From: Allostreptomyces psammosilenae
Lineage (GTDB): Bacteria; Actinomycetota; Actinomycetes; Streptomycetales; Streptomycetaceae
Direction of reading: 5' to 3'
Length of the DNA stretch: 64,000 nt
NCBI RefSeq assembly: GCF_013407765.1
Contig: NZ_JACBZD010000002.1
Coordinates: 940,001-1,004,000 of the forward strand
In this document: piece by piece, positions 18,077-46,339 of the stretch
Layout of the letters: each line of letters begins with the position of its first letter
Numbering within the stretch: the first letter of the stretch is position 1
The notes under the pieces: generated by a model
Told to the model about the DNA's origin: nothing
Database searches by the model: none
The model's input: the letters and a program-made list of their open reading frames with translations, nothing else
Translations under genes and position numbers: made by a program

Positions 18077-19444
18077 TCAGGACCTGCTGGGCGAGCGGCT
18101 GCGGTTGCGGTCCCCGGGACGCTCCTCCGGGCCCTCCGGCGAGGTGTCGCGGGGCGCGGGAATCCCGCTCGGGCCGCCGGAGCGCCCCACCCGTTCGCCC
18201 TGGACGCCCTGGAGCCCCTGGGAGCCGTGCCCCGGGTGCCCGTGGACGCCCGAACCGGCGCCGTTCAGACCGCCCGGAGCGGCGGCAGCCGCGCCGACCG
18301 AACCGGAGCCGTTCAGCGTGGCCCCGGTGCCGTGGCCGGTACCCGGCGTGCCGGTGGCCGGGCCCATCGCCTGGCGGGCCCGGAAGGCCGTCCGGTAGGC
18401 GGCGGGGGAGACCCCGAGCTGCCGCCGGAAGTGCCCACGCAGCGCCACCGGCGAGCGGAAGCCGCACAGCTGCGCGATCTCGTCGACCGTCGCCTCGGTG
18501 CTCTCCAGCAGCCGTTGGGCCTGCATCACCCGCTGGGTGATCAGCCACTGCAGCGGGGCGCTGCCGGTCAGCGTCCGGAACCGTCGGTCGAAGGTCCGGC
18601 GGCTCATGTAGGCGCGCGCGGCCAGCACCTCCACGTCGAACTGTTCGGAGATGTGGTCCAGCGCCCAGGTGATCACCTCGGCCAGCGGGTCGTTGCCGAT
18701 CTCCTCCGGTAATGACCTGTCGATGTACTGCGCCTGTCCGCCGTCGCGCTGGGCCGGCACCACCAGGCGCCGCGCCAGCGAGTTGGCCACCTCCGAGCCG
18801 TGGTCGCTGCGCACCAGGTGCAGGCACAGGTCGATGCCGGCCGCCGTGCCGGCGCTGGTCAGCACCGATCCGTCGTCGATGAACAGCTCGCGCGGATCCA
18901 CCCGCACCTTCGGGAAGCGCTTGGCGAGCGTGGGCGCGTACATCCAGTGCGTCGTCGCCGGCCGGCCGTCCAGCAGTCCGGCGGCGGCGAGCACGAAGGC
19001 GCCCGTGCACAGCCCGACGATGCGCGCCCCCTCGTCGTGCGCCTTGCGCAGTGCGTCCAGCGCCTCGGCCGGCGGCGAGTGGGTGGGCGAGCGCCAGGCC
19101 GGCACCACGACGGTGCCCGCCCGGGCGAGCCCTTCCAGGCCATGCGGAGCGGTGAGCTCCACTCCGCCCGTCGTGCGCAGCGGCCCCTGCTCCCCGGCGC
19201 ACACCACCAGGCGGTAGCGGGGCACCCCGGCGTCGCGGCGGTCGATGCCGAACACCGAGATCGGGATGGAACTCTCGAAGATCGGGCCGTTGCCGAAGAG
19301 CAGCACGGCCACGGTCTCGCGGCGACGTCTGGGAGAGAGGTCTCGGGCGCGACCGGGTTCGGCCACGCCGCCCGGGCGGGGTGCCTTGCGGACCGTGTCC
19401 CGGATGGGGTCCCGGGCCGGATCCGTCCTGATGTCCCTCGTCAT
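18077..19444 (-). CDS. adpA: AdpA, pleiotropic AraC/GATase1-family developmental regulator
   Basis: The 455-residue protein has an N-terminal DJ-1/PfpI (GATase1-like) dimerisation domain (VAVLLFGNGPIFESS, VVVPAWRSPTH, IVGLCTGAFVLAAAGLLDG) and a C-terminal AraC HTH pair (SRRTFDRRFRTLTGSAPLQW; VDEIAQLCGFRSPVALRGHF). It matches the Streptomyces AdpA sequence I know closely across both domains. A TTA leucine codon lies at 18712-18710 (RS-L-PEEIG) between the domains, the conserved hallmark that makes adpA translation depend on the bldA tRNA. The tail of about 100 residues is Gly/Pro-rich and longer than usual. ATG 19444 has a GGGGGG about 10 nt upstream. AdpA controls morphological differentiation and secondary metabolism. 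Confidence 0.96.
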   Translation of the reverse strand: MTRDIRTDPARDPIRDTVRKAPRPGGVAEPGRARDLSPRRRRETVAVLLFGNGPIFESSIPISVFGIDRRDAGVPRYRLVVCAGEQGPLRTTGGVELTAPHGLEGLARAGTVVVPAWRSPTHSPPAEALDALRKAHDEGARIVGLCTGAFVLAAAGLLDGRPATTHWMYAPTLAKRFPKVRVDPRELFIDDGSVLTSAGTAAGIDLCLHLVRSDHGSEVANSLARRLVVPAQRDGGQAQYIDRSLPEEIGNDPLAEVITWALDHISEQFDVEVLAARAYMSRRTFDRRFRTLTGSAPLQWLITQRVMQAQRLLESTEATVDEIAQLCGFRSPVALRGHFRRQLGVSPAAYRTAFRARQAMGPATGTPGTGHGTGATLNGSGSVGAAAAAPGGLNGAGSGVHGHPGHGSQGLQGVQGERVGRSGGPSGIPAPRDTSPEGPEERPGDRNRSRSPSRS

Positions 19445-30262: not shown

Positions 30263-33200
30263 TCACAGCTCCTCCTCCAGGGACATCCGGCCGACCTCCG
30301 GCAGGTGCTCGTCGAGTTCCCCCGGCTCGAACCGGGTCAGCCCGACGACGTGCCAGAACTCGCCGGCCACCTCCCCCTCGTACTTGTAGCGCCCGCCAGG
30401 GGTCACCGCCGCCCAGCCCTCGGGCATGCCCAGCAGCCCGCCCTTCTGCACGGTGCGCACGGTCCGCCCGCCGTCCTCGGTGAACACCCGCCACAGCCGC
30501 ACCACCCCGTCCTCGCCGCCGCCCGCCAGCAGCCGGCCGTCCGGACTGAACGCCAGCGACATCACGGCCCCGGCGGCGCCCTCCAACTCGCCCACCAGGC
30601 GGCCGGCCGCCGCGTCCCACAGCCGCACCACAGAGTCGTCCCCGCCGGTCGCGGCCACCCGGCCGTCCGGGTGCACGGCCGCGGTCCACAGCCGCCCGGT
30701 GTGCCGCCGCAGCCGGTGCCGCAGCCGGCCGCGCTCCCACACCAGCACGTCGCCGTCCCAGCCCACGCTGAGCAGCCAGGCGTCGTCCGGGGGGAACGCC
30801 ACCGCGTACACCCGGTCGGAGTGGCCGGCCAGCTCCGCGGTGCAGGTGCCGGCGGCCACGTCCCACAGCCGCACCAGGCCGTCGTCGCAGCCGGTGGCGA
30901 GCGTGGCGCCGGTGGAGGTGAAGGCGAGCGTGCGGGCCCGCCCCCGGTGGCCGCGCAGCACGCCGCGCGGGGTGCCGACGTCGCGGTCCCACAGCCGCAC
31001 CGTCTCGTCGTCGTTCGCGGTGGCCAGCAACTGCCCGTCCGGGCTGAACGCCTCCGCCCACACGTGGTCGGTCTCCACGTCCAGGCCGCGCACGAAGCGG
31101 GCGCTGACCGGCTCCCACAGGTGGACGTCGCCGTCGTTGGTGGCCGTCGCCAGCCGGCGGCCGTCGGGGGTGAAGCTGGCGGATATCAGCCGCCCGGACC
31201 GGCCGGTCAGCTCGGCGGTCCGCCGCCCGGTCACCGGGTCCCACAGCCGCACCACGCCGTCGTTGGAGGCCACCGCCAGCAGGTCGCCGGCGCCGCTGAA
31301 CGCCACCTGGCCGATCCGCCGGCCGTGGCCGCGCAGGATGTGCCGGCCCTGGCCCCGCACCGGGTCCCACAGCCGCAGCGTCCCGTCGTTGTCGCTGGTG
31401 ACCAGCCGGCTGCCGTCGGGGCGGAAGGCGCAGGCCCACACCGACCCCTCGTGGGCGTCCGGCTGCACCGGAAGCTCACGCAGCACCGGTTCGTGCGCCT
31501 GGCGCGCCGCGGGCGGCGGCGGGGGCGGCGGGGGCGGCCCGCCCGGCGCGGCGGCCCGGCCGGGGCCGACCCCGCCGGGCGCGGTGGGTCGGCCCGACGC
31601 GGGGAGCCGGCCGGGCGCGGCGCGGAGCGTCAGCCGCTCCCGCTCGCCGCCGCGCTCCCCCCGCGGGTCCCGGTCGCCGCCCCGCCCGTCCGACCCCGGC
31701 GGGGCGTCCTGGATCGGCACCCGCCGCGGCTCCTCCGCGACCCGCCACACCCGAACCGCGCCGGAGCTGTGGCTGGCCGCCAGCAGCTGGCCGTCCTGGC
31801 TGAACACCACGCGGTAGACGGCCCCCGAGTCCCGCTTCGGCTGCGCCATGGTGCGGCCGGTGGCCGGATCCCGCACCGGCACCCGGACACCGGTGGAGGG
31901 CACCCACACGTGCACCCCACCACCGGTGTCCCCGGCCGCCAGCAGCATGCCCTCGCGCACCGGACGGAAGCTCAGCGTGTACACCCGGCCGCCCAGCCCG
32001 GTCATCTCGTGCAGCAGCTCACCGGTGGCGGCGTCCCAGACGCGCACCGCGCCGCCGGCGCCCCCGTTGCCGCCCGGCCCCTCCGGCCCCCGGTCCGCGG
32101 TCGCCACCAGGGCGCCGTCCGGGCTGAACCGGGCCCGGTAGACCGGCCCGACGTGCCCGGGCAGCTCGTAGACGAGCCGGCCGGCCGCCGCGTCCCACAC
32201 CGTCACCCGGCCCGCGTCGTCCCCGACCACCAGCAGCCGCTCGTCCGGGTCGAAGCCGGCCGTGTACACGGTCGGGGTGTGCCCGTCCAGGGTGTGCAGC
32301 AGGGTGCCGGTGGCGGTGTCCCACAGCCGCACGGTGCCGGCCCGGTCCCCGGTGGCCAGCACCCGGCCGTGCGGGCCGGGCGCCATCGGCCACACCCCCG
32401 CCCGGTGCCCCTCCAGCCGGTGCACCAGCCGCCCGTCGGCCGCGTTCCACAGGCAGACCGCGCCGTCCGCCGCCCCGGTGAACAGCAACTGCCCGGCGAA
32501 CCGGACGGCGTACACCCGCGCGGTGTGCCCGCGCAGCCGGCGCAGCGGCGTCCCGTTGGAGCCGTCGCACACCATGACGCTGCCGTCCTCACTGCCCACC
32601 GCCAGCACGTCGCTGTCCCGGCTGTAGGAGATCGGCTCCGGCAGCCGGCTCGTCTCCAGGTCGAAGCCGTAGGGCACGCCCACCGTGGAGGGGCGCAGCC
32701 CCAGCTCCACCCGGCTGCCCGGGACGACCGCGGCACCGATCAGGTCCGGTGCCTCGGCCAGCTCCGGGCCGCCGGTGGCGGTGATCAGCGCCGCCCGGTT
32801 CCAGGAACTGCCGGCCACCTTCGCGCCGGTGACGTCGGTGCGGATCAGCCGCGCGCCGCGCAGGTCCGCGCCGGTCAGGTCGGCCCCGGACAGGTCCGCG
32901 CCGTCCAGCCGGGCGCCGGTCAGCTGCGCCCGGGCCAGCTTGGCGCCGGAGAGGTTGGCCGAGACCAGCCGGGCCCGCCGCAGGTCGGCCCCGGTGAGGT
33001 CCACCCCGGCCAGGTCCCGGTGCGAGAGGTCCTCGCCGCGCAGCACCGCGCCGCGCAGGTCGGTCTGGGTCGGCACCCGCAGCCGGGCCAGGATCCGGTC
33101 CGCGTTGGCCCGGGCCGCCTCGCCCGCGTCGGCGGTGCCGCTGCGCACCCAGCGCGCCCACTCCTGGCAGGCCCGGGGGTCGGCCAGGTCGCACAGGAAG

Positions 33201-36200
33201 TCCACGGCCAGCTGGGTGAGCGGCCTGCGGTGCAGCACGGGCAGCCCGGCCAGCGGCACGTCCGGACCGCCCGGGCCGTTCTCCCCGCCGAGCTGCCGGG
33301 CGGCGGCCCGGGCCACCAGCCACTCCGCGACCGAGCCGTGGATGAAGCCGAACAGCCCCTCCTCGGTGCGCACCAGCAGGCTGCCGGCGCCGATGGCGTG
33401 GGTCAGCTGCGCCACCGAGCGCTGGTCGACGGCGACCTCGGCCAGCGCCCGGGCCACGTCGGTCAGGTCGGCCATGCGCAGCGCCGGCATGTCCGCCTCC
33501 CACATGCGCAGCGCCAGCGCGGTGACGCCGCGCCACAGCTCGTCGGTGGACAGCCCCGGCGGCGCCCCCGGAATGCCGCGCCCGCGCTGCTCCTCGAACT
33601 CCAGCCACTCCTCCAGCAGGTGCTGGTACAGGCCGGCGGCGCTGAGCACCCGGCCGGAGCCGGCGGCGGCCCGCAGCCGCTCCTCGTCCAGCGCCGCGAC
33701 GAAGCCCAGCAGGCGCGGGTTGCGGCACAGCGACAGCAGGTTCGGCACGGCCGACAGCAGCCGCATCCGGCGCTCGGCGGCGTCCGCGTCCCCGGCGAAG
33801 TGCGCGGTCAGGTAGACCCGGATCTGCTCGTGGGTGAAGTCCTCCAGGGTGAGGACGCGGCGGTGCGGTAAGAGGCCGACCTGCTCGCCGAGCGCGGTGA
33901 AGACCTGCGCGTTGGAACGGAAGTGCTGGGTGCGGCTGGAGACCACGATCTTGGCGTCGTCCACGGCCGCGTCCAGCAGCTTCTGCAGGTGCTCGGTGGC
34001 CCGCTCGAAGCTGATCCGGGTGGCGAGCTCGTCGAAGCCGTCGAACAGCAGCACGATCCGGCCCTCGCGCAGCATGAAGCGGAAGGCCCGCAGGTTGAAG
34101 TCGACCTCGCCGTGGTTGGCCAGGTGGGCGGCGACCAGGCCGTCCACCCCGTGCGCCTTGTCCAGGGCGCGCAGCTCGATCAGGATCGGCACCAGGTGCG
34201 GGAGCTCGGCGGGGATCCGGCGGGCCACCTCGTGCAGCGCGAACGTCTTGCCGTGGCCGAAGTCGCCGAGCAGCAGCAGGAAACGGCCGTGGTCGGAGCC
34301 CAGCAGGCGCAGCAGCTCGTCCACGACGTCCTGCCGCACCTCGCCCTCGCCCTCGTTCAGGGTCCGGTAGCGCTGCGGCAGGTACAGCCGGGGGGGGTAG
34401 CGGGTGTCCAGGGTCAGCCGCCGGGTCTGCCGGGTGACGTAGTCGGTGAGGTCCAGCAGCCCCTGGAACTCCAGCAGGCTGCGCACCAGCACGCCCTGAC
34501 GGCGCCCCCAGGCGCGGATCGTCTCGGCCGGCGGCGGCCCGTCGTAGACCAGCTCGGCGTTGGACTCGGCGGCCGAGGCGTGCACGGCGTCCTGGAACGC
34601 GGCGACGTCCTCCCGGGTCGGGGTGCCCGGGCAGGCGGCGACCCGCTGCTGGCGGACGATGCCGTCCTCCCGGTAGGTGACCAGCAGGTGCGCCGGGTTG
34701 CCGGGGACGCGGCGCACCGCCGCGTCCGGGTGGCGCACCCGGCAGGTCTCCTCCAGCCGGTCCAGCAGCAGCTCGGTGGGGGTGGGGATGTCCCGGGGCC
34801 CGCCGCCGAGGGCGGGCCAGGCGCCGGTGGAGCCGCGGCCCGGTGCCCGGTCGCCGGCCCGCCGGCCGCCCGAGTCCGCGCCGGCCGGGTTGGAATCCGC
34901 GCCGCCACGGCCGGACCGCCCGCCGCCGAGGGTCGGCGGGTCCGGCCGCGCCGGCGGGGCGGGCGCGGCCGGTGGCGGGGCCCCGACCAGGGCGGCGTGC
35001 GCCGCGGGCCAGATGCGGGGGAGGTCCTCCGGGGCGCCCGGGACACCGCCGGGGCCGGCCTCCGCGGGCGCGCCGCGCCAGCGCCGCAGCCCCTCCGCGG
35101 TGATCCGCAGCAGCTGGTACCGGCCCGGCGCCGACGGCCCGGATTCCTCCGCCAGCGGCTCCGACCGGCCGCCGGCGCCCGGGCCGTGCAGCAGCAGGTG
35201 CAGGTGGGGGGAGAGCAGCTGGCGCAGCACGGTGGTGTCCCGCAGCGCCTCCGCGCCGGCCGCGCCGCGCCCGGTGGGCGGGTGGCGCACCGCCCCGAGC
35301 CGCAGCCAGCCCAGCTCCTCGTAGCGGGCCAGCCGCTGCGCGAACCAGGTCGCCTGCTCGCCGCCGAGCCAGCCGTAGTCGTCGTCCGGCCGGTGGGTGA
35401 CCGCGATCGTGGAGTTGAGCCCGGCCACCACGGTGCGCAGCTCCGGGACCTCGAAGAGGGTCCACGGCTGGGCCTCGTCGAAGACCAGCTCCAGGCCCTG
35501 GTACAGCTCGTGGAAGAGCGCGGCGAAGTGCTTGAGCTTGGGGAAGAACGGCGGGATCGGCTCGCGGTCCTCGGACTCCCGCTCGGTGAAGTAGGCCAGG
35601 CAGGCCAGCCGGTTGACGTCGCCGCCGCCGGGCACCACCACCAGGCGGTGCGGCTCCAGCCCGAGCAGCACCCGCAGGCCGGTCAGGAAGGTGAGCGCCT
35701 GTTCGAACTCGCGGGGCCGGCCGCTGGTGGTGAGGTCGCCGGTGACCACCAGCAGGTCCGGCGGCGGCGCGCCCGCGTCGGTCAGCCGCTGCACCTGGGA
35801 CCACAGCCGGGTCTGCGCCGCGCCGGGCTCCTCGCCGGCGCCGAAGCCCGGGCCGGCCACGTGCAGTACCGTCAGCCGCTCCCGAGGGCCGGCGGCGCGC
35901 TCCGGGCGGGAGGGCGGGAACGGGGGCGCGGCGGCCGGCCGCCGCCGCCCGGCCGGGCCGGGATCGGTGCGTCCCGGACCCGCCTCCCAGGGCGGGACGC
36001 CATCGATCTCCCACGGGCGCCCCGGAACGGCCCAGCCGCCGGACGGGGAGCGCTCCGCCCCGCCGCCCGGGTACCCGGGGCGGGCGAGCGGACGGGCCCG
36101 CCCGGCGAGCGCCTGCTCCAGCCGGGTGAGCAGCATCCAGCGAGCCGTCTCGGCGTCGGTGACCGGGGCCAGGTCGACGTAGGTGATGTTGGCCAGCAGG

Positions 36201-36568
36201 CCCTCCACCGGAACGTCCTCCACCCGCACGGTCACCAGCCGCGCCCCCGGGTTGTCCGGGTCCGAGCGCATCGCGGCCTGCCACTCCAGGCGGCCGAAGC
36301 GGGAGCGCTCGTAGTTGCCGGAGAGCACGGCCAGCACCACCGCGGCCTCCCGCACGCCGCGGTCCATGTACTCCATGAAGTTGGTGCCCGGCACGAAGTC
36401 CCAGGCCTGCACCATGGTGCGGTAGCCGGCCTCCTCCAGCGTCCAGGCCATCCAGGTGGCCCAGCGCTCGTCGGCCGGGGAGTAGCTGATGAAGAAGTCC
36501 AGCGGACGCTGCGCCCAGGTCTGATCCGAGTTCCCCAGCATGTCTGCCACTGTATGACCGGCCATCAC
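30263..36568 (-). CDS. NLR-like STAND protein: TIR - pseudo-phosphoesterase - NACHT - pentapeptide - WD40
   Basis: This single 2,101-residue polypeptide has these modules in order. TIR (about 22-155): DFFISYSPADERWATW through AVVLAVLSGNYERS and FGRLEWQAAM, where E95 is the candidate NADase Glu. A metallophosphoesterase-like region (about 225-470) follows, with its metal ligands replaced (LHVAGPGFG, VTGDLTT, VVVPGGGDVNR, LLLHGPGAGG). A degenerate restriction-endonuclease-like segment (about 590-715) is tentative. The NACHT ATPase has an intact Walker A GDFGHGKT (about 767) and Walker B IVLLFDGFDELA (about 837). Pentapeptide repeats (A-(D/N)-L-x-x) span about 1160-1260. WD40 blades come in groups of 7 and 8, split by a Pro-rich linker. 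An in-frame TTA codon lies at 33871-33869 (codon 900). TIR-STAND proteins of this plan are known or predicted anti-phage sensors; that role is inference here. Starts GTG 36568 or ATG 36565. Confidence 0.9.
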   Translation of the reverse strand: MMAGHTVADMLGNSDQTWAQRPLDFFISYSPADERWATWMAWTLEEAGYRTMVQAWDFVPGTNFMEYMDRGVREAAVVLAVLSGNYERSRFGRLEWQAAMRSDPDNPGARLVTVRVEDVPVEGLLANITYVDLAPVTDAETARWMLLTRLEQALAGRARPLARPGYPGGGAERSPSGGWAVPGRPWEIDGVPPWEAGPGRTDPGPAGRRRPAAAPPFPPSRPERAAGPRERLTVLHVAGPGFGAGEEPGAAQTRLWSQVQRLTDAGAPPPDLLVVTGDLTTSGRPREFEQALTFLTGLRVLLGLEPHRLVVVPGGGDVNRLACLAYFTERESEDREPIPPFFPKLKHFAALFHELYQGLELVFDEAQPWTLFEVPELRTVVAGLNSTIAVTHRPDDDYGWLGGEQATWFAQRLARYEELGWLRLGAVRHPPTGRGAAGAEALRDTTVLRQLLSPHLHLLLHGPGAGGRSEPLAEESGPSAPGRYQLLRITAEGLRRWRGAPAEAGPGGVPGAPEDLPRIWPAAHAALVGAPPPAAPAPPARPDPPTLGGGRSGRGGADSNPAGADSGGRRAGDRAPGRGSTGAWPALGGGPRDIPTPTELLLDRLEETCRVRHPDAAVRRVPGNPAHLLVTYREDGIVRQQRVAACPGTPTREDVAAFQDAVHASAAESNAELVYDGPPPAETIRAWGRRQGVLVRSLLEFQGLLDLTDYVTRQTRRLTLDTRYPPRLYLPQRYRTLNEGEGEVRQDVVDELLRLLGSDHGRFLLLLGDFGHGKTFALHEVARRIPAELPHLVPILIELRALDKAHGVDGLVAAHLANHGEVDFNLRAFRFMLREGRIVLLFDGFDELATRISFERATEHLQKLLDAAVDDAKIVVSSRTQHFRSNAQVFTALGEQVGLLPHRRVLTLEDFTHEQIRVYLTAHFAGDADAAERRMRLLSAVPNLLSLCRNPRLLGFVAALDEERLRAAAGSGRVLSAAGLYQHLLEEWLEFEEQRGRGIPGAPPGLSTDELWRGVTALALRMWEADMPALRMADLTDVARALAEVAVDQRSVAQLTHAIGAGSLLVRTEEGLFGFIHGSVAEWLVARAAARQLGGENGPGGPDVPLAGLPVLHRRPLTQLAVDFLCDLADPRACQEWARWVRSGTADAGEAARANADRILARLRVPTQTDLRGAVLRGEDLSHRDLAGVDLTGADLRRARLVSANLSGAKLARAQLTGARLDGADLSGADLTGADLRGARLIRTDVTGAKVAGSSWNRAALITATGGPELAEAPDLIGAAVVPGSRVELGLRPSTVGVPYGFDLETSRLPEPISYSRDSDVLAVGSEDGSVMVCDGSNGTPLRRLRGHTARVYAVRFAGQLLFTGAADGAVCLWNAADGRLVHRLEGHRAGVWPMAPGPHGRVLATGDRAGTVRLWDTATGTLLHTLDGHTPTVYTAGFDPDERLLVVGDDAGRVTVWDAAAGRLVYELPGHVGPVYRARFSPDGALVATADRGPEGPGGNGGAGGAVRVWDAATGELLHEMTGLGGRVYTLSFRPVREGMLLAAGDTGGGVHVWVPSTGVRVPVRDPATGRTMAQPKRDSGAVYRVVFSQDGQLLAASHSSGAVRVWRVAEEPRRVPIQDAPPGSDGRGGDRDPRGERGGERERLTLRAAPGRLPASGRPTAPGGVGPGRAAAPGGPPPPPPPPPAARQAHEPVLRELPVQPDAHEGSVWACAFRPDGSRLVTSDNDGTLRLWDPVRGQGRHILRGHGRRIGQVAFSGAGDLLAVASNDGVVRLWDPVTGRRTAELTGRSGRLISASFTPDGRRLATATNDGDVHLWEPVSARFVRGLDVETDHVWAEAFSPDGQLLATANDDETVRLWDRDVGTPRGVLRGHRGRARTLAFTSTGATLATGCDDGLVRLWDVAAGTCTAELAGHSDRVYAVAFPPDDAWLLSVGWDGDVLVWERGRLRHRLRRHTGRLWTAAVHPDGRVAATGGDDSVVRLWDAAAGRLVGELEGAAGAVMSLAFSPDGRLLAGGGEDGVVRLWRVFTEDGGRTVRTVQKGGLLGMPEGWAAVTPGGRYKYEGEVAGEFWHVVGLTRFEPGELDEHLPEVGRMSLEEEL

Positions 36569-36743
36569 CCCGCGGCAGGAGATCGCGGTGACCGCCGGGA
36601 AGGGCGCTGACCGGTGTGAACGACGGGGCCCGGGAGGTGTGAGGGGCTCGGCCGACGGTCCGCCGGCGGCTCGTCGACGGGAGTCCCCCGGCGCTTCGCC
36701 GGCGCTTTCCCGGCGGAGGAGGCCGCCGGCCCACCCGCGGGCG

Positions 36744-37703
36744 CTAACCCAGCACGCCGGAGCGCGCCACCAGGTCCAGCAGCGCCTCCATCGCCTCCGG
36801 GCGGCCCGCCACGTAGGAGCGGTCGGCGTCCGGCAGCCCCAGCCGGTCGTCGAACGGGGTGCCGTCCAGCCGGCGGACGCTCACCCCGGCCTCGGCCGCG
36901 ATCAGGTAGCCGGCCGGCAGGTCGACGGCCTCCGCCTCGTACGCGACGAAGCCGTCGATGTCCCCGCGGGCGAGCATCACCCAGCACATCAGCGGCGCCC
37001 ACAGCTGCAGCACCCGCCGGGCCTCCGCCTCCAGGGCGTGCCGCAGCCGCAGCGCCCGCGGGTTTCCGCGGCCGACGCCGTGCCCCTGCGTCCAGGCCAG
37101 CAGCGGCCCCGCCGGGTGCACCGGCCGCGGCGGCGTGACCAGGCAGGTCTCATCCGGGCCCAGGGTGCCGCGGCCCCGGATGGCCGACCAGGTGCGGCCG
37201 GCCACCGGGTCGTGCACCACGCCCAGCACCGGATCGCGGTCCGCGCACAGCGCGATCCCCACGACGTACGCGGGCAGCCCGATGGCCACGTTGTTGGTCC
37301 CGTCCAGCGGGTCCACCACCCAGGTCCAGGTACGGCCCGGCTCCCCGCCGCCGGCCGCGGCCGCCCCGCCGGCGTCCCCCCCGGATCCGCCCCCCGCCGG
37401 GGACGCGGCCTCGCCCTCGAGGATGCCGGCCTCCTCGGAGATCACCCGGTCGGACGGGTACGCGGTGCGCAGCCGCTCCAGGATCAGCTTCTCGGAGAGC
37501 ACGTCCAGGCCGGTCACCAGGTCCCCCGAGGACCCTTTCGCCTGCACCTTCAGGTCACCGTGGAAGCGCTCGTGGACGGCCTCCCCGGCCTCCCGGGCCG
37601 CGGCCACCGCCAGCGCCCGGGCCCGCTCCAGGTCCCGGCCGTCACCCGGCTGGTCGCGTGGGCCGGCCCCCTCGGGCCGCTCAGAGGTCGGCATGGGCGG
37701 CAT
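36744..37703 (-). CDS. Inositol monophosphatase-family phosphatase
   Basis: The 319-residue Mg2+/Li+-type phosphatase has VISEEAGILEG (metal Glu), WVVDPLDGTNNVAIG (metal motif D-P-L-D-G-T-N) and EAVDLPAGYLIAAEAGVSV (third-metal Asp region). Substrates in the family include inositol phosphates, PAP, fructose bisphosphate and histidinol phosphate; the substrate here cannot be told. A Gly/Ala-rich insertion of about 25 residues separates the first two motifs. ATG 37703 is chosen because GGGAGG lies 4 nt upstream; it overlaps the upstream cupin-like gene by 23 bp, so translation is probably coupled. It lies 175 bp 5' of the NLR-like gene, on the same strand. Confidence 0.9.
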   Translation of the reverse strand: MPPMPTSERPEGAGPRDQPGDGRDLERARALAVAAAREAGEAVHERFHGDLKVQAKGSSGDLVTGLDVLSEKLILERLRTAYPSDRVISEEAGILEGEAASPAGGGSGGDAGGAAAAGGGEPGRTWTWVVDPLDGTNNVAIGLPAYVVGIALCADRDPVLGVVHDPVAGRTWSAIRGRGTLGPDETCLVTPPRPVHPAGPLLAWTQGHGVGRGNPRALRLRHALEAEARRVLQLWAPLMCWVMLARGDIDGFVAYEAEAVDLPAGYLIAAEAGVSVRRLDGTPFDDRLGLPDADRSYVAGRPEAMEALLDLVARSGVLG

Positions 37704-38376
37704 GGATCCTCCCGGCGATCGCTTCGGCCACGCGGACGGTCTCGGAGCGGTCGCACAGGCGCCGGTCGACGACGTGCGATCCGGCGTCCAGCGGCCCCAA
37801 CGACAGGTCGGTGCGGCTCGCCCGGGCACGGCCCAGAACGACGGTCACCGCCGTGGTCCTGTCGTCCACTGTCGACGTGTGGAATTCCCCGGCCGGCAGC
37901 GTGTACACCTGGCCCGGCCCACTTCTCTCGACACGCGCCGGCGCACAGCGCACAACGCGGTCGGTCGGCACGATGCGGTCCGTGCCGTCGGAACTGTGTA
38001 CTTCGAACACCCGGTGGGTGGGCTCCTCGCCCGGCCCGGTGGAGTCCGACACCCGCATCCAGGTGTTCTCCACGTGACCGGACAGCACGACGCTGGTCAT
38101 GTCCCAACTGTGGCAGTGCACCTCGGAGGTCGTGGGCCGTTCGGTCTCCACCGGCGCGCCGCCGTTCCACGGCGCGCTCCACGGGTTGAACAGGTGCACG
38201 CACACCCCCAGGTCGCCCTCGCGCTGCACCGGCAGGCAGAGGAAGCCCAGCGGGTGGCGGACCGCCAGCAGCGCCCGCCGCCCGTCGGCGATCTCGGCCA
38301 GCGTGGCCAGCGCCCGGGGCGGCACGGCATCCACCTCCCCGCGCGCCAGCAGGCCCTCTAACACCGTGTACTCCAT
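37681..38376 (-). CDS. Cupin-like hypothetical protein with TTA codon
   Basis: The 231-residue protein has no family I can name with confidence. The centre (SEVHCHSWDMTSVVLSGHVENTWMRV) and VYTLPAGEFHTSTV resemble the two His-containing motifs of a cupin barrel, as in small dioxygenases or cysteine-dioxygenase-like proteins. Codon 6 is TTA (38361-38359), placed where it would block translation early without the bldA tRNA. The downstream IMPase gene overlaps it, so that gene is likely affected too. ATG 38376 has AGGTGG about 9-14 nt upstream. Confidence 0.75.
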   Translation of the reverse strand: MEYTVLEGLLARGEVDAVPPRALATLAEIADGRRALLAVRHPLGFLCLPVQREGDLGVCVHLFNPWSAPWNGGAPVETERPTTSEVHCHSWDMTSVVLSGHVENTWMRVSDSTGPGEEPTHRVFEVHSSDGTDRIVPTDRVVRCAPARVERSGPGQVYTLPAGEFHTSTVDDRTTAVTVVLGRARASRTDLSLGPLDAGSHVVDRRLCDRSETVRVAEAIAGRIHAAHADL

Positions 38377-38635
38377 GGTCGTCCACCTATCGCGTCGGCC
38401 GGCCGGCACCGCGGCTACGGCTCCCGGTACCGCTCCGGTAGGGATCCCGACACGGCCGTACCGCGGCCGGTCGCGGCCGCGCCGAGTTCCGCGTCGTGCT
38501 ACTCGGTAACCGGCATGCCCGGCTCCCGGAGCCGGCGAACCCGCCCGGCGGCGCCCCGGGTGAGGACCGGACACCCGCGCGCGGGCGCCGGCGGCCCCTG
38601 CTCACCGCCGGCCCCTGCTCACCGCCGGCCCCTGC

Positions 38636-39634
38636 TCACCGCCGGTAGGGGTTCTGCGCGTGCAGGGCCTTGGAGACGATCGCCGCGACGTCGAGGTCGG
38701 AGAAGCTCTCCGGCAGCGGCAGGCCCACCCGCTCGAACAGCTCCCGGGCCGCGTCCACGGAGGGCTCCTCGTCCAGCCGCTGCGCCTGGCGCAGCGGGAC
38801 CGGACGTCCCTGCTCGTGGCTGACCCGCAGCTCCGTCACGTAGTAGTCGTACAGCGGCTTGCCGCGCTCCACCAGCAGGTTCACCCGCTCCGGGTCGTCC
38901 TGGGTGATGACCAGGCAGGACGCCGACATGTCCCAGCGCAGCGTCGGCATCGTGCTGGACAGCGACACCTCGATGTCCAGGGACGGCAGGCGCTGGGCGT
39001 ACCAGCAGGCGGCCAGGACGGTGGCGTACGACTCCAGACGGGTGCGCTTGGGCGTCCAGCCGTCCAGCGCCGGGTTGCCCAGGTGCCGGGTGAACGAGGT
39101 GCGGAAGTGCGCGTAGCGCTCGCAGACGCGCACGTCGGAGGGGTCGATGATGTCCAGCTGCATGGTGAGCGAGCGGCGCGCGATCCGGGCCAGGTGCACG
39201 CACTCCGGCAGCGTGACCGCCCGCATGTAGGTGCCCGTGCCGCCCTTGAAGAACCAGCGGTCGGTGTCCCGGCGGGCCGCCGCCAGCGCCTCCTCGACCT
39301 CCGGCCCGGTGATCGCCCGCGCCATCGACAGTTCCTCCAGGGCGACCCGGCTGGCCGCCATGGTGTCCGTTGCCCCGAGCAGCGCCCGCCGGCTCTCCTC
39401 GGACAGCCGCCGCACCTCGTCCACCGCGTGCCGCAGCTCGCCGGAGTTGCGCGCGCGGTCCTGCAGCATGCCGACCACCAGCGCGGCCAGCACCAGCAGG
39501 GTGGCGCCGCGCACCATGTTGTCCCGCAGGACGTCGGCGAAGAGGTCCAGGAAGGCGAAGACGACGGCGACCACGATCGCCAGCACGCCGTCCGCGTTCC
39601 GTGCGAGCCACCCGATCAGCCGGCCCATCTCCAT
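38636..39634 (-). CDS. Two-TM membrane protein with cytoplasmic domain
   Basis: The 332-residue protein has two N-terminal TM helices (VLAIVVAVVFAFLDLF and ATLLVLAALVVGML, about residues 14-55), then a short helical linker (AVDEVRRLSEESRRALLG). A soluble domain of about 230 residues follows (WFFKGGTGTYMRAVTLPECVHLARIARRS, DPSDVRVCERYAHFR). I do not recognise the domain with certainty. The layout of paired TM helices plus soluble domain recalls membrane-acting effectors of bacterial defence systems, but no such homology was verified. ATG 39634 has GGGAGGG 4-10 nt upstream. A 15-bp palindrome lies 88 bp upstream. Confidence 0.75.
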   Translation of the reverse strand: MEMGRLIGWLARNADGVLAIVVAVVFAFLDLFADVLRDNMVRGATLLVLAALVVGMLQDRARNSGELRHAVDEVRRLSEESRRALLGATDTMAASRVALEELSMARAITGPEVEEALAAARRDTDRWFFKGGTGTYMRAVTLPECVHLARIARRSLTMQLDIIDPSDVRVCERYAHFRTSFTRHLGNPALDGWTPKRTRLESYATVLAACWYAQRLPSLDIEVSLSSTMPTLRWDMSASCLVITQDDPERVNLLVERGKPLYDYYVTELRVSHEQGRPVPLRQAQRLDEEPSVDAARELFERVGLPLPESFSDLDVAAIVSKALHAQNPYRR

Positions 39635-43838: not shown

Positions 43839-46232
43839 TCAGCGCCTGGCCGGTCCGACCTCGATGGTCATCCGGTCGCCGCTGGGGGAGACACCGGTGA
43901 GCTTGATCACCGTGCCGGTGTCCGGAACCCGCACGCTGCCGCCCGGGTTGGCCTCGTCGTAGTAGACGCCGTTGTGGTCGTCGAAGACCGACACCCCGCG
44001 CTGGCTCGGCACGCGGGTCGGCACCCCGTTGCGGTGCAGCGTGAAGCCGTCGGTCCGCTCGAAGGAGAACGCCGAGTCGTACGACTGGATCCGGTTGCGC
44101 ATCACCGTGCCGTCGCTCCAGCGCAGCGCCCGCGGGTGGGCGTCCACCGGCAGCACCAGGCCCTGCCCCGGGTGCTCGCTGACGTTGTTGTCCAGCTGCG
44201 AGGTGTCCCACAGCCAGACCACCATCCCGTTCTGGTACGGGAAGCGCTCCACCCAGTCCGGGCGGGTGTTCGCCCAGCCGAAGTTGTACGGGCCGAGCTC
44301 CAGCGTCTCGTCGTAGGAGACGTACTGCCGGTTCTCCACGATGTAGAACTGCGGGTAGGTGTCGGTGATCGTGGCACCCACCCGGCTGAAGCCGCGCGGC
44401 GTCCAGCCGGCGTCGTCGCCCTCCGCGCCGTCGGCGAGGATCTCGGTGCCGTCCGCCGTGATGGAGATGGCGTCGGCGGTGAAGCCCTTCTCCGCCACCC
44501 CGCCGTCGGTGGTGTAGCGGAACCGCAGCAGCACGCTCTGCCCGGCGTAGGCGTCCAGCGGGAAGACCAGGTCGGTGTAGCCGCCCGAGGTGCCGTCCAG
44601 GGCGGGCCGGCCGGCGGAGTCACGGCCCAGCGGCCGGCCGCCGGCGGTGCCGTCCAGTGCCGTCCAGCTGGTGCCGCCGTTGGTGGAGACCTCGGTGTAG
44701 AGGTAGTCGTAGCCGGCCTCGATCTCCCACCAGCCCTTCAGGGAGAGCTGGGCGGTGGCGGCGCCGGTGAGGTCGACGGTGCGGGTCAGCGTGTTCGACA
44801 GGTCGTCGCCGCTGCCGCTCCACCACTGCGCGGAGCCCTCCGCCGGGACGGTGATCTCGGTGGTCACCTCCTTCTCCGGCAATTCGACGACGAGGGCCTG
44901 GTCGAGGCGGGTGTTGTACTCGCTGTACCCGAGGGTGTGCCGGGAGCGCGTCGCCGCCTGGGCGGTGTCGAAGTCCAGCCAGCCGAGCTGCAGCTTGTCC
45001 CAGGCGGTCAGGTCGCCGGGCAGGTCGCCGATCTCGTTGCCGCCGTCGTTCAGCCAGGAACCCGAGGACATCAGCGACCAGAACCCGGTGGAGTTCTCGC
45101 CGCCCGCGGTGTCGTAGAGGTCCGGCAGGCCCAGGTCGTGGCCGTACTCGTGCACGAAGACGCCCAGGCCGCCGTTCTCCGGCTGCATGGTGTAGTCGCC
45201 GATCCAGATGCCGGTGTCGCCGACCTGGGTGCCGCCGAGCAGGTTGCCCTCCGGCCCGGTGCTGCCGGCCGAGGTGCCGTAGGCGTACCAGCGGTGCGCC
45301 CAGATGGCGTCCTCGCCCTCGGCGCCGCCGCCCGCCGACTCGTCCTCGCCGGCGTGCACGATCTGGAAGTGGTCGATGTAGCCGTCGGACTCGTCGAAGT
45401 TGCCGTCGGCGTCGTGGTCGTAGCGGTCCCAGACGTCGAACTCGGCCAGCTCGGCGCGGATCTGCTCGGGCGTGGCGCCGGCGGCCTCGCGGTCGGCCAC
45501 CCACTGGTTGGCGGCGTCCCGCACCAGGTCCCAGACGGTGGCGCAGACGTTGGAGCCGCAGTCGTTGTTGCCGTACCGGGCCTCGTTGTAGGGGACGCGC
45601 ACCCAGTCGGTGACCGTCCCCTCCACGCTGTAGCGGCCCGAGGACTGCCGCTCGAAGTAGGTGGCGACCGAGTGGCCGTCCTGCGCGAAGTAGAGGTCCT
45701 GGTAGTGGGCCTGGTTGTAGTCGGCCTGCCAGATGGTGGAGTTGTCCACCGAGCGGTCCGGCTCGGCGATCTCGTTGTGCTGCGGGCCCGGGGTGCCGCC
45801 GTAGGTCTCGGTCACCTGGTCGTCGAACTCGGCCAGGATCACGAAGATGCGGTCGGTCGCCTCGCGGCCGAGCTCGACGTACTTGCCGTCGTCCAGCCGC
45901 ACGCGCCGGGACTGCGCGCTGCGCTCGACCTCGGCCTCGCCCGAGGCCAGGGCCTGCACGGCGGCGGCGCGCTCGGCGTTCACCTGGTCGGTGAGCGGGC
46001 CCTTGAGGTCGTGGACGGGCTCCGCGGCGCCGGTGCCGGGCGCGTGCGCGCCGTCGGGGGCCACTGCGCCGCCCACGGGGGTGGCGGCGGAGTCGGCCGC
46101 GGCGGATGCCGGCGCGGACGCGGATGAGGGGGAGACGGCGGATGCCTGGGCGGGCAGCGCCGTCGCGGTCAGCGCGGCGGCCACGGTGACGGCCGCCAGC
46201 AGTGATCGCCGTATGCCCCGGGATTCCTTCAC
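43839..46232 (-). CDS. Secreted M6-family metalloprotease (immune inhibitor A-like)
   Basis: The 797-residue protein has an N-terminal signal peptide (RRSLLAAVTVAAALTATALPAQASA, cleavage near residue 32) and an Ala/Ser-rich propeptide. The M6 catalytic domain has the zinc motif FVHEYGHDLGLPDLYD (HExxHxxGxxD, about residue 355), preceded by the typical DHFQIVHAGEDESAGGG. Downstream are jelly-roll-type domains (WWEIEAGYDYLYTEVSTNGGTSWTAL) and a second M6-like C-terminal segment (YIVENRQYVSYDETL). It degrades extracellular proteins; homologues cleave antibacterial peptides or participate in mycelial lysis. GTG 46232 follows AAGGGAA by 11 nt. Confidence 0.93.
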   Translation of the reverse strand: MKESRGIRRSLLAAVTVAAALTATALPAQASAVSPSSASAPASAAADSAATPVGGAVAPDGAHAPGTGAAEPVHDLKGPLTDQVNAERAAAVQALASGEAEVERSAQSRRVRLDDGKYVELGREATDRIFVILAEFDDQVTETYGGTPGPQHNEIAEPDRSVDNSTIWQADYNQAHYQDLYFAQDGHSVATYFERQSSGRYSVEGTVTDWVRVPYNEARYGNNDCGSNVCATVWDLVRDAANQWVADREAAGATPEQIRAELAEFDVWDRYDHDADGNFDESDGYIDHFQIVHAGEDESAGGGAEGEDAIWAHRWYAYGTSAGSTGPEGNLLGGTQVGDTGIWIGDYTMQPENGGLGVFVHEYGHDLGLPDLYDTAGGENSTGFWSLMSSGSWLNDGGNEIGDLPGDLTAWDKLQLGWLDFDTAQAATRSRHTLGYSEYNTRLDQALVVELPEKEVTTEITVPAEGSAQWWSGSGDDLSNTLTRTVDLTGAATAQLSLKGWWEIEAGYDYLYTEVSTNGGTSWTALDGTAGGRPLGRDSAGRPALDGTSGGYTDLVFPLDAYAGQSVLLRFRYTTDGGVAEKGFTADAISITADGTEILADGAEGDDAGWTPRGFSRVGATITDTYPQFYIVENRQYVSYDETLELGPYNFGWANTRPDWVERFPYQNGMVVWLWDTSQLDNNVSEHPGQGLVLPVDAHPRALRWSDGTVMRNRIQSYDSAFSFERTDGFTLHRNGVPTRVPSQRGVSVFDDHNGVYYDEANPGGSVRVPDTGTVIKLTGVSPSGDRMTIEVGPARR

Positions 46233-46339
46233 GGTGCGAAGTTCCCTTCTGTTGCCGGATGAGGCCGGCTCAGACCGGCGCTCCGACAGGGGCGGCGACG
46301 GCCTGGGCTCCGCCCGTATCTTCATCAGACAATCAGCTC

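Follow-up and report, generated by a model that had tools for sequence, protein, structure and literature searches.

The cupin-like gene of a conserved TIR-NACHT cassette in Allostreptomyces psammosilenae contains a TTA codon and belongs to a family in which TTA is enriched among the Streptomycetaceae. The bldA tRNA reads TTA and accumulates late in growth. The best explanation of our comparisons, which we consider probable, is that dependence of the cupin on bldA has been selected, that the NLR-like receptor of the cassette is made independently, and that the TTA in the receptor gene is incidental. The window was the whole stretch of DNA analysed, 64,000 nucleotides of contig NZ_JACBZD010000002.1 (positions 940,001 to 1,004,000), and all coordinates refer to it. 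The original prediction had placed the entire block under bldA control. The part concerning the cupin was supported, as its family is TTA-enriched in Streptomycetaceae; the part concerning the NLR-like gene was not, as its codon is private to this genome and occurs at the background rate.

A gene call based on open reading frames and codon usage found TTA in 3 of the 40 genes of the window: an adpA-type regulator, the NLR-like (TIR-NACHT-WD40) gene and the cupin-like gene. These are the same three in-frame codons that had been counted by eye. The adpA-type gene (18077-19312, minus strand) carries its classic TTA at 18712-18710, between the DJ-1/PfpI-like and AraC-type HTH regions, as had been proposed. 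This gene lies outside the cassette and is a positive control for bldA-type usage; an interdomain TTA has been described for AdpA of streptomycetes (PMC4255298). The background sample consisted of 60 stretches of 20 kb (1.2 Mb) across the 6.65 Mb genome. Fifteen of its 979 genes (1.5%) contained TTA, so TTA is rare in this strain, as had been assumed. Among the 17 TTA codons of the sample, 13 were located within the first 36 codons, with start sites called mechanically, so that some may lie upstream of the true start. A bias of TTA to gene starts has been reported for streptomycetes (PMC4255298). The genome has a tRNA-Leu(UAA) gene: a pattern search and ARAGORN detected one tRNA-Leu(taa), a single copy by that pattern.

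The three TTA genes among 40 exceeded the 0.61 expected from the background (P = 0.024). Two of the three fell inside a four-gene block, with P = 0.022 by gene number or 0.078 when weighted by length. All of these P values are post hoc, and the window alone is therefore only suggestive. The clustering claimed in the original prediction is thus present, but it is statistically weak. Such a weak excess (P 0.02-0.08) is compatible with the view that both TTA codons of the block are rare codons that fell by chance into weakly biased accessory genes and have no regulatory meaning. We consider this unlikely, and the evidence that bears on it is given below for each gene. No TTA was present in the partial ORFs of the genome's other NACHT-bearing stretches (L002-L005), so TTA is not a general trait of its NLR-like genes.

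Comparison with relatives showed that the NLR-like, cupin-like and inositol-monophosphatase-family (IMPase) genes, which had been taken as one block, are evolutionarily conserved together. Across 80 named actinomycete loci, including Streptomyces, Kitasatospora, Nonomuraea, Actinomadura, Streptosporangium, Microbispora and Herbidospora, the order was nearly always PLD-like membrane protein, cupin, IMPase, opposite-strand permease and TIR-NACHT-WD40. The PLD-like gene was present in 79 of these loci, the IMPase in 78, the permease in 76, TIR in 73 and NACHT in 67; several of the absences are loci cut by contig ends. In a set of 394 Streptomycetaceae genomes, including Streptomyces and Kitasatospora and with the genome analysed here as the sole representative of its genus, cupin homologues were found in 35, of which 33 were strong, and 32 genomes had NLR homologues. 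All 32 NLR genomes were strong cupin genomes, and G385 was the sole strong cupin genome without an NLR. The two homologues were adjacent wherever both shared one contig. On these gene orders, the cassette is a real conserved block in Streptomycetaceae and other actinomycetes. An early reading, in which the NLR had nothing to do with the adjoining cupin operon, was given up, since both co-occur in the same genomes. Two loci appear to be cassette remnants or variants: the locus in G385 (L158) has a PLD-like gene and a diverged cupin and lacks the NLR, and in that of Planotetraspora mira (L191) the genes are ordered differently and neither an IMPase nor an NLR lies close by.

PADLOC-DB contained no system matching the cassette; its only hits were partial and weak, in the TIR and the repeats. 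The literature searched held no description of cupin, inositol monophosphatase, NACHT and TIR occurring together. The cassette is apparently a conflict-type cassette of five genes that has so far been undescribed, with two families outside Pfam. Its domain architecture suggests an immune role. A gene for an immune inhibitor A-type M6 metalloprotease (43839-46325) is located near the cassette in the window; it was not seen among the cassette genes of relatives.

The NLR-like gene (30263-36541, minus strand) encodes a protein of 2092 aa with TIR_2, degenerate metallophosphatase-like, NA-iREase3, NACHT and pentapeptide regions and WD40 repeats. TIR_2 was matched with an E-value of 6.5e-31, and NACHT scored above the family cut-off. 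By its predicted domains the protein has a receptor layout, with an N-terminal TIR, a NACHT NTPase and C-terminal repeats. NA-iREase3 is a NACHT-associated inactive nuclease domain. The metallophosphatase-like stretch (35580-35880) was spotted by eye between TIR and NA-iREase3. The usual DxH and GNHD residues are missing from it, both in the window copy and in those relatives that were read, and it is probably a non-catalytic domain. The N-terminal TIR_2, central NACHT, NA-iREase3 and repeat C-terminus resemble bacterial NLR-like/STAND NACHT proteins with a TIR effector (PMC7159879). Unlike the conflict systems of that type, the cassette has a cupin, an IMPase, a PLD-like membrane protein and a permease as fixed companions.

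The TTA of the NLR-like gene is located at 33871-33869, as originally read. It had been numbered codon 900 from a GTG at 36568, but it is codon 891 from the likelier ATG at 36541. At this column TTA occurred only in this genome, and 56 of 57 relatives had leucine, almost always CTC or CTG. Recurrence of TTA across the orthologues was not observed: 8 of the 62 Streptomycetaceae NLR genes had one, mostly at unshared columns. Per codon this equals the background (8/113,574 vs 13/152,514 in flanking genes, P = 0.83), as chance would predict. The most fitting reading of this private, background-rate codon is that it is incidental. Should it be translated, full-length receptor in this strain would nonetheless depend on the UUA-reading tRNA.

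The cupin-like gene (37681-38376, minus strand) encodes 231 aa. Its TTA was confirmed in frame at codon 6 (38361-38359), where it occupies the commonly conserved leucine of an M[DE]YxxLE start motif; leucine was found at this column in 56 of 76 Streptomycetaceae homologues. The homologues begin with M[DE]Y..LE, which backs the start at 38376, and codon 6 is therefore translated. Another possible start is an in-frame GTG at codon 18, preceded 8 nt upstream by a good Shine-Dalgarno sequence (GGGGAGG), and its use would turn the TTA of the window into untranslated leader. This start is very improbable. The homologues retain the start motif, the N-terminal helix (residues 3-11) is predicted with high confidence (block pLDDT 96), and the TTA codons at L36, L48 and L196 in relatives are unambiguously internal.

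TTA was present in the cupin gene at 21 of 64 distinct Streptomycetaceae loci (33%). A second draw of genomes gave 3 of 12 further loci, and the total was 24 of 76. The operon neighbours from the same family had few TTA codons (IMPase 1/62, PLD-like 2/61), as did the flanking genes (12/509) and the flanking genes matched for GC3 and length (2/92). None of 54 GC3-matched genes of similar length in the own genome contained TTA. Outside Streptomycetaceae, TTA was found in 1 of 38 cupins. CTA is a leucine codon whose third position is just as A+T-rich, and the ratio of TTA to CTA was 21:8 in the cupins vs 13:39 in the flanks (P = 5e-5), so the cupin TTA is not due to general A+T drift.

These controls weigh on two other explanations. 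Cupin GC3 is 0.90, lower than the genome mean of 0.956, which agrees with chance rare codons. Most TTA codons are also poorly conserved according to a survey of 213 Streptomyces species (PMC10327506). However, the matched genes had far less TTA (2/92 and 0/54) than the cupins (21/64), CTA was not raised in parallel, and the adjacent operon genes with the same phylogeny were TTA-poor. It is also conceivable that the cupin TTA is an unpurged trace of a recent acquisition of the cassette from donors richer in A+T. The cassette is patchy, occurring in about 8% of the family genomes, which is consistent with horizontal spread, and the same survey (PMC10327506) suggests a horizontal origin for many TTA genes. 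Yet TTA is not plentiful in the IMPase, PLD-like and NLR genes of these cassettes, cupin CTA is not raised, and the non-Streptomycetaceae homologues, potential donors included, are those with TTA in 1 of 38 cupins. We regard this origin as most improbable. The controls with CTA and with GC3-matched genes speak against explaining the enrichment by G+C content or by transfer. The cupin-specific enrichment is what bldA control predicts and fits a selected bldA dependence of the cupin.

The 24 cupin TTA codons were distributed over four columns, in the numbering of the window: L6 in this genome only, L36 in 15 loci, L48 in 1 and L196 in 7. The locus of S. noursei A-2-1 (L208) is one of those with TTA at L36. 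Parsimony required 11-13 changes, of which at least 7 are forced by well-supported branches. The other four cassette genes showed 16 TTA changes in 2,852 codons, which gives 1.2 expected for the length of the cupin. The probability of at least 7 changes was 3e-4, and that of the strict minimum of 4 origins (distinct columns) was 0.04. TTG, one step from TTA, was frequent at L36, with 11 rows, and TTA may therefore have arisen there by a local mutational route. Two columns, L36 and L196, provide much of the cupin signal, through TTA that persisted or recurred there. From these alignments, the enrichment is specific to the cupin and to Streptomycetaceae, with an uncertain number of origins. Since two thirds of the Streptomycetaceae cupins are without TTA, bldA dependence is not essential.

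The gene layout in relatives separates the cupin from the receptor. The cupin gene overlaps the IMPase gene (36744-37703, minus strand) at 37681-37703 in the window, as had been noted, and an overlap of about 20 bases occurs in nearly all Streptomycetaceae loci, so translational coupling is probable. The permease and NLR genes of relatives are divergent, with a median of 113 bp between them, and the NLR probably has its own promoter there. The opposite-strand permease splits the NLR from the cupin operon in these loci, so the cupin TTA need not limit NLR synthesis. No permease gene is present between the IMPase and the NLR in the window (36541-36744), and a search found no relative of it elsewhere in the genome. 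The spacing between the PLD-like gene and the cupin has a median of 24 bases in relatives vs 259 in the window. This gap (38376-38636) holds short near-tandem repeats (ggtgagcaggggccggc). The 259-bp gap with its repeats suggests a separate cupin promoter or an insertion. A scan of 36400-38800 for sigma-70 promoters and terminators gave no hits; the scan is insensitive in this G+C range and uninformative for this organism. Matches to the AdpA-box consensus were no more frequent than by chance, and none was upstream of the cassette genes.

This layout bears on whether both TTA codons hold the receptor back until development, with the entire block including the NLR under bldA control. Both genes carry TTA in this genome, and among 64 Streptomycetaceae cassettes there are 34 in which one or more of the five genes contain it. 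With the permease gone, only about 200 bp separate the IMPase from the NLR, and no promoter or terminator was picked up between them by simple scans, so co-transcription may occur here. Against this, the NLR TTA is private (1/57 at its column) and comes late, at codon 891, the NLR genes show no enrichment of TTA per codon, the receptor of relatives is probably transcribed separately, and the promoter scan between IMPase and NLR is insensitive at this G+C content. Control of the whole block is thus quite unlikely. Gating by bldA of the cupin, together with the overlapping IMPase, is likely on these sequence comparisons.

Under a published working criterion, a gene is counted as frequently TTA-containing when at least 5 other Streptomyces genomes have the codon and it is largely missing outside Streptomycineae (PMC4255298). 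The cupin falls into this class, at a consistency well below that of adpA. Like known bldA-dependent TTA genes such as adpA (Chater and Chandra, PMC4255298; PMC10327506), the cupin has TTA frequently in Streptomycetaceae and almost never outside. As in such genes, the TTA can occupy different positions, and the same genome carries an adpA with an interdomain TTA and a tRNA-Leu(UAA). Unlike adpA, which has TTA nearly always, only about a third of the cupin copies have it, and its position varies. The cupin also differs from known bldA-dependent genes in being neither regulatory nor biosynthetic and in belonging to a conflict-type cassette. The available part of the 213-species survey, which applied a cut-off of 50% of species, does not list the cupin as a conserved TTA protein (PMC10327506).

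We propose that TTA has been kept or regained at a few positions of the Streptomycetaceae cupin, most likely through selection for bldA dependence. The cupin protein would then reach a working level only at a late stage of growth (aerial or stationary), and the IMPase would be delayed alongside it through translational coupling. In this working model the receptor would be produced on its own and stand by as a sensor, and the cupin/IMPase module, which would complete or tune the receptor response, would arrive with development. The NLR TTA of this genome would be a private and probably incidental addition. If the cupin restrains rather than arms the receptor, its TTA would mean late damping instead of late arming. 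We tentatively suggest that Streptomycetaceae have repeatedly placed a bldA codon in the cupin so that the TIR-NACHT cassette can mount its full response only while the mycelium is developing or ageing; this is possible, and we would not call it likely. If true, it would be a direct molecular link of bacterial development to innate immunity. Young Streptomyces mycelium has been reported to resist phage less well than mature mycelium, an age effect that is weaker in developmental mutants (PMC10117723). If one component of a conserved receptor cassette were gated by bldA, this would offer one concrete, testable route to the effect. The comparison also singles out which of the two TTA codons should be mutated first.

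The cupin-like protein had no Pfam or NCBIfam match. Its structure was modelled confidently (pLDDT 93), and the nearest folds were cysteine/thiol dioxygenases (4qm9, Z 10.6 over 132 residues at 3.1 A); Foldseek matched 3eqe (E 3e-5). The best structural matches included B. subtilis YubC, ADO and mercaptosuccinate dioxygenase. The protein carries the HxH and GxxxxxPxGxxH cupin motifs, and H87, H89 and H166, which may form a 3-His metal site, are invariant in the alignment of its family. It differs from them in being only about 13% identical and outside those domain databases, so the likeness is one of predicted fold.

The PLD-like gene (38636-39628, minus strand) is the first gene of the conserved operon and encodes a putative membrane-anchored protein of no clear Pfam family. 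Residues of about 98-306, in its C-terminal part, have a predicted phospholipase D fold (Z about 10), shared with Nuc, PLD3 and the SauUSI nuclease domain, and the N-terminus has predicted helices that look membrane-spanning. Unlike the phospholipase D superfamily, the family has no invariant HxK-type catalytic motif and adds these helices, so the PLD-like protein may not be an enzyme. The permease of relatives is about 390 aa and matches CitMHS and ArsB. TTA was found in the permease gene at 7 of 62 Streptomycetaceae loci, and in five Streptomyces loci (L169, L170, L174, L183 and L214) it occupies one shared column near the start.
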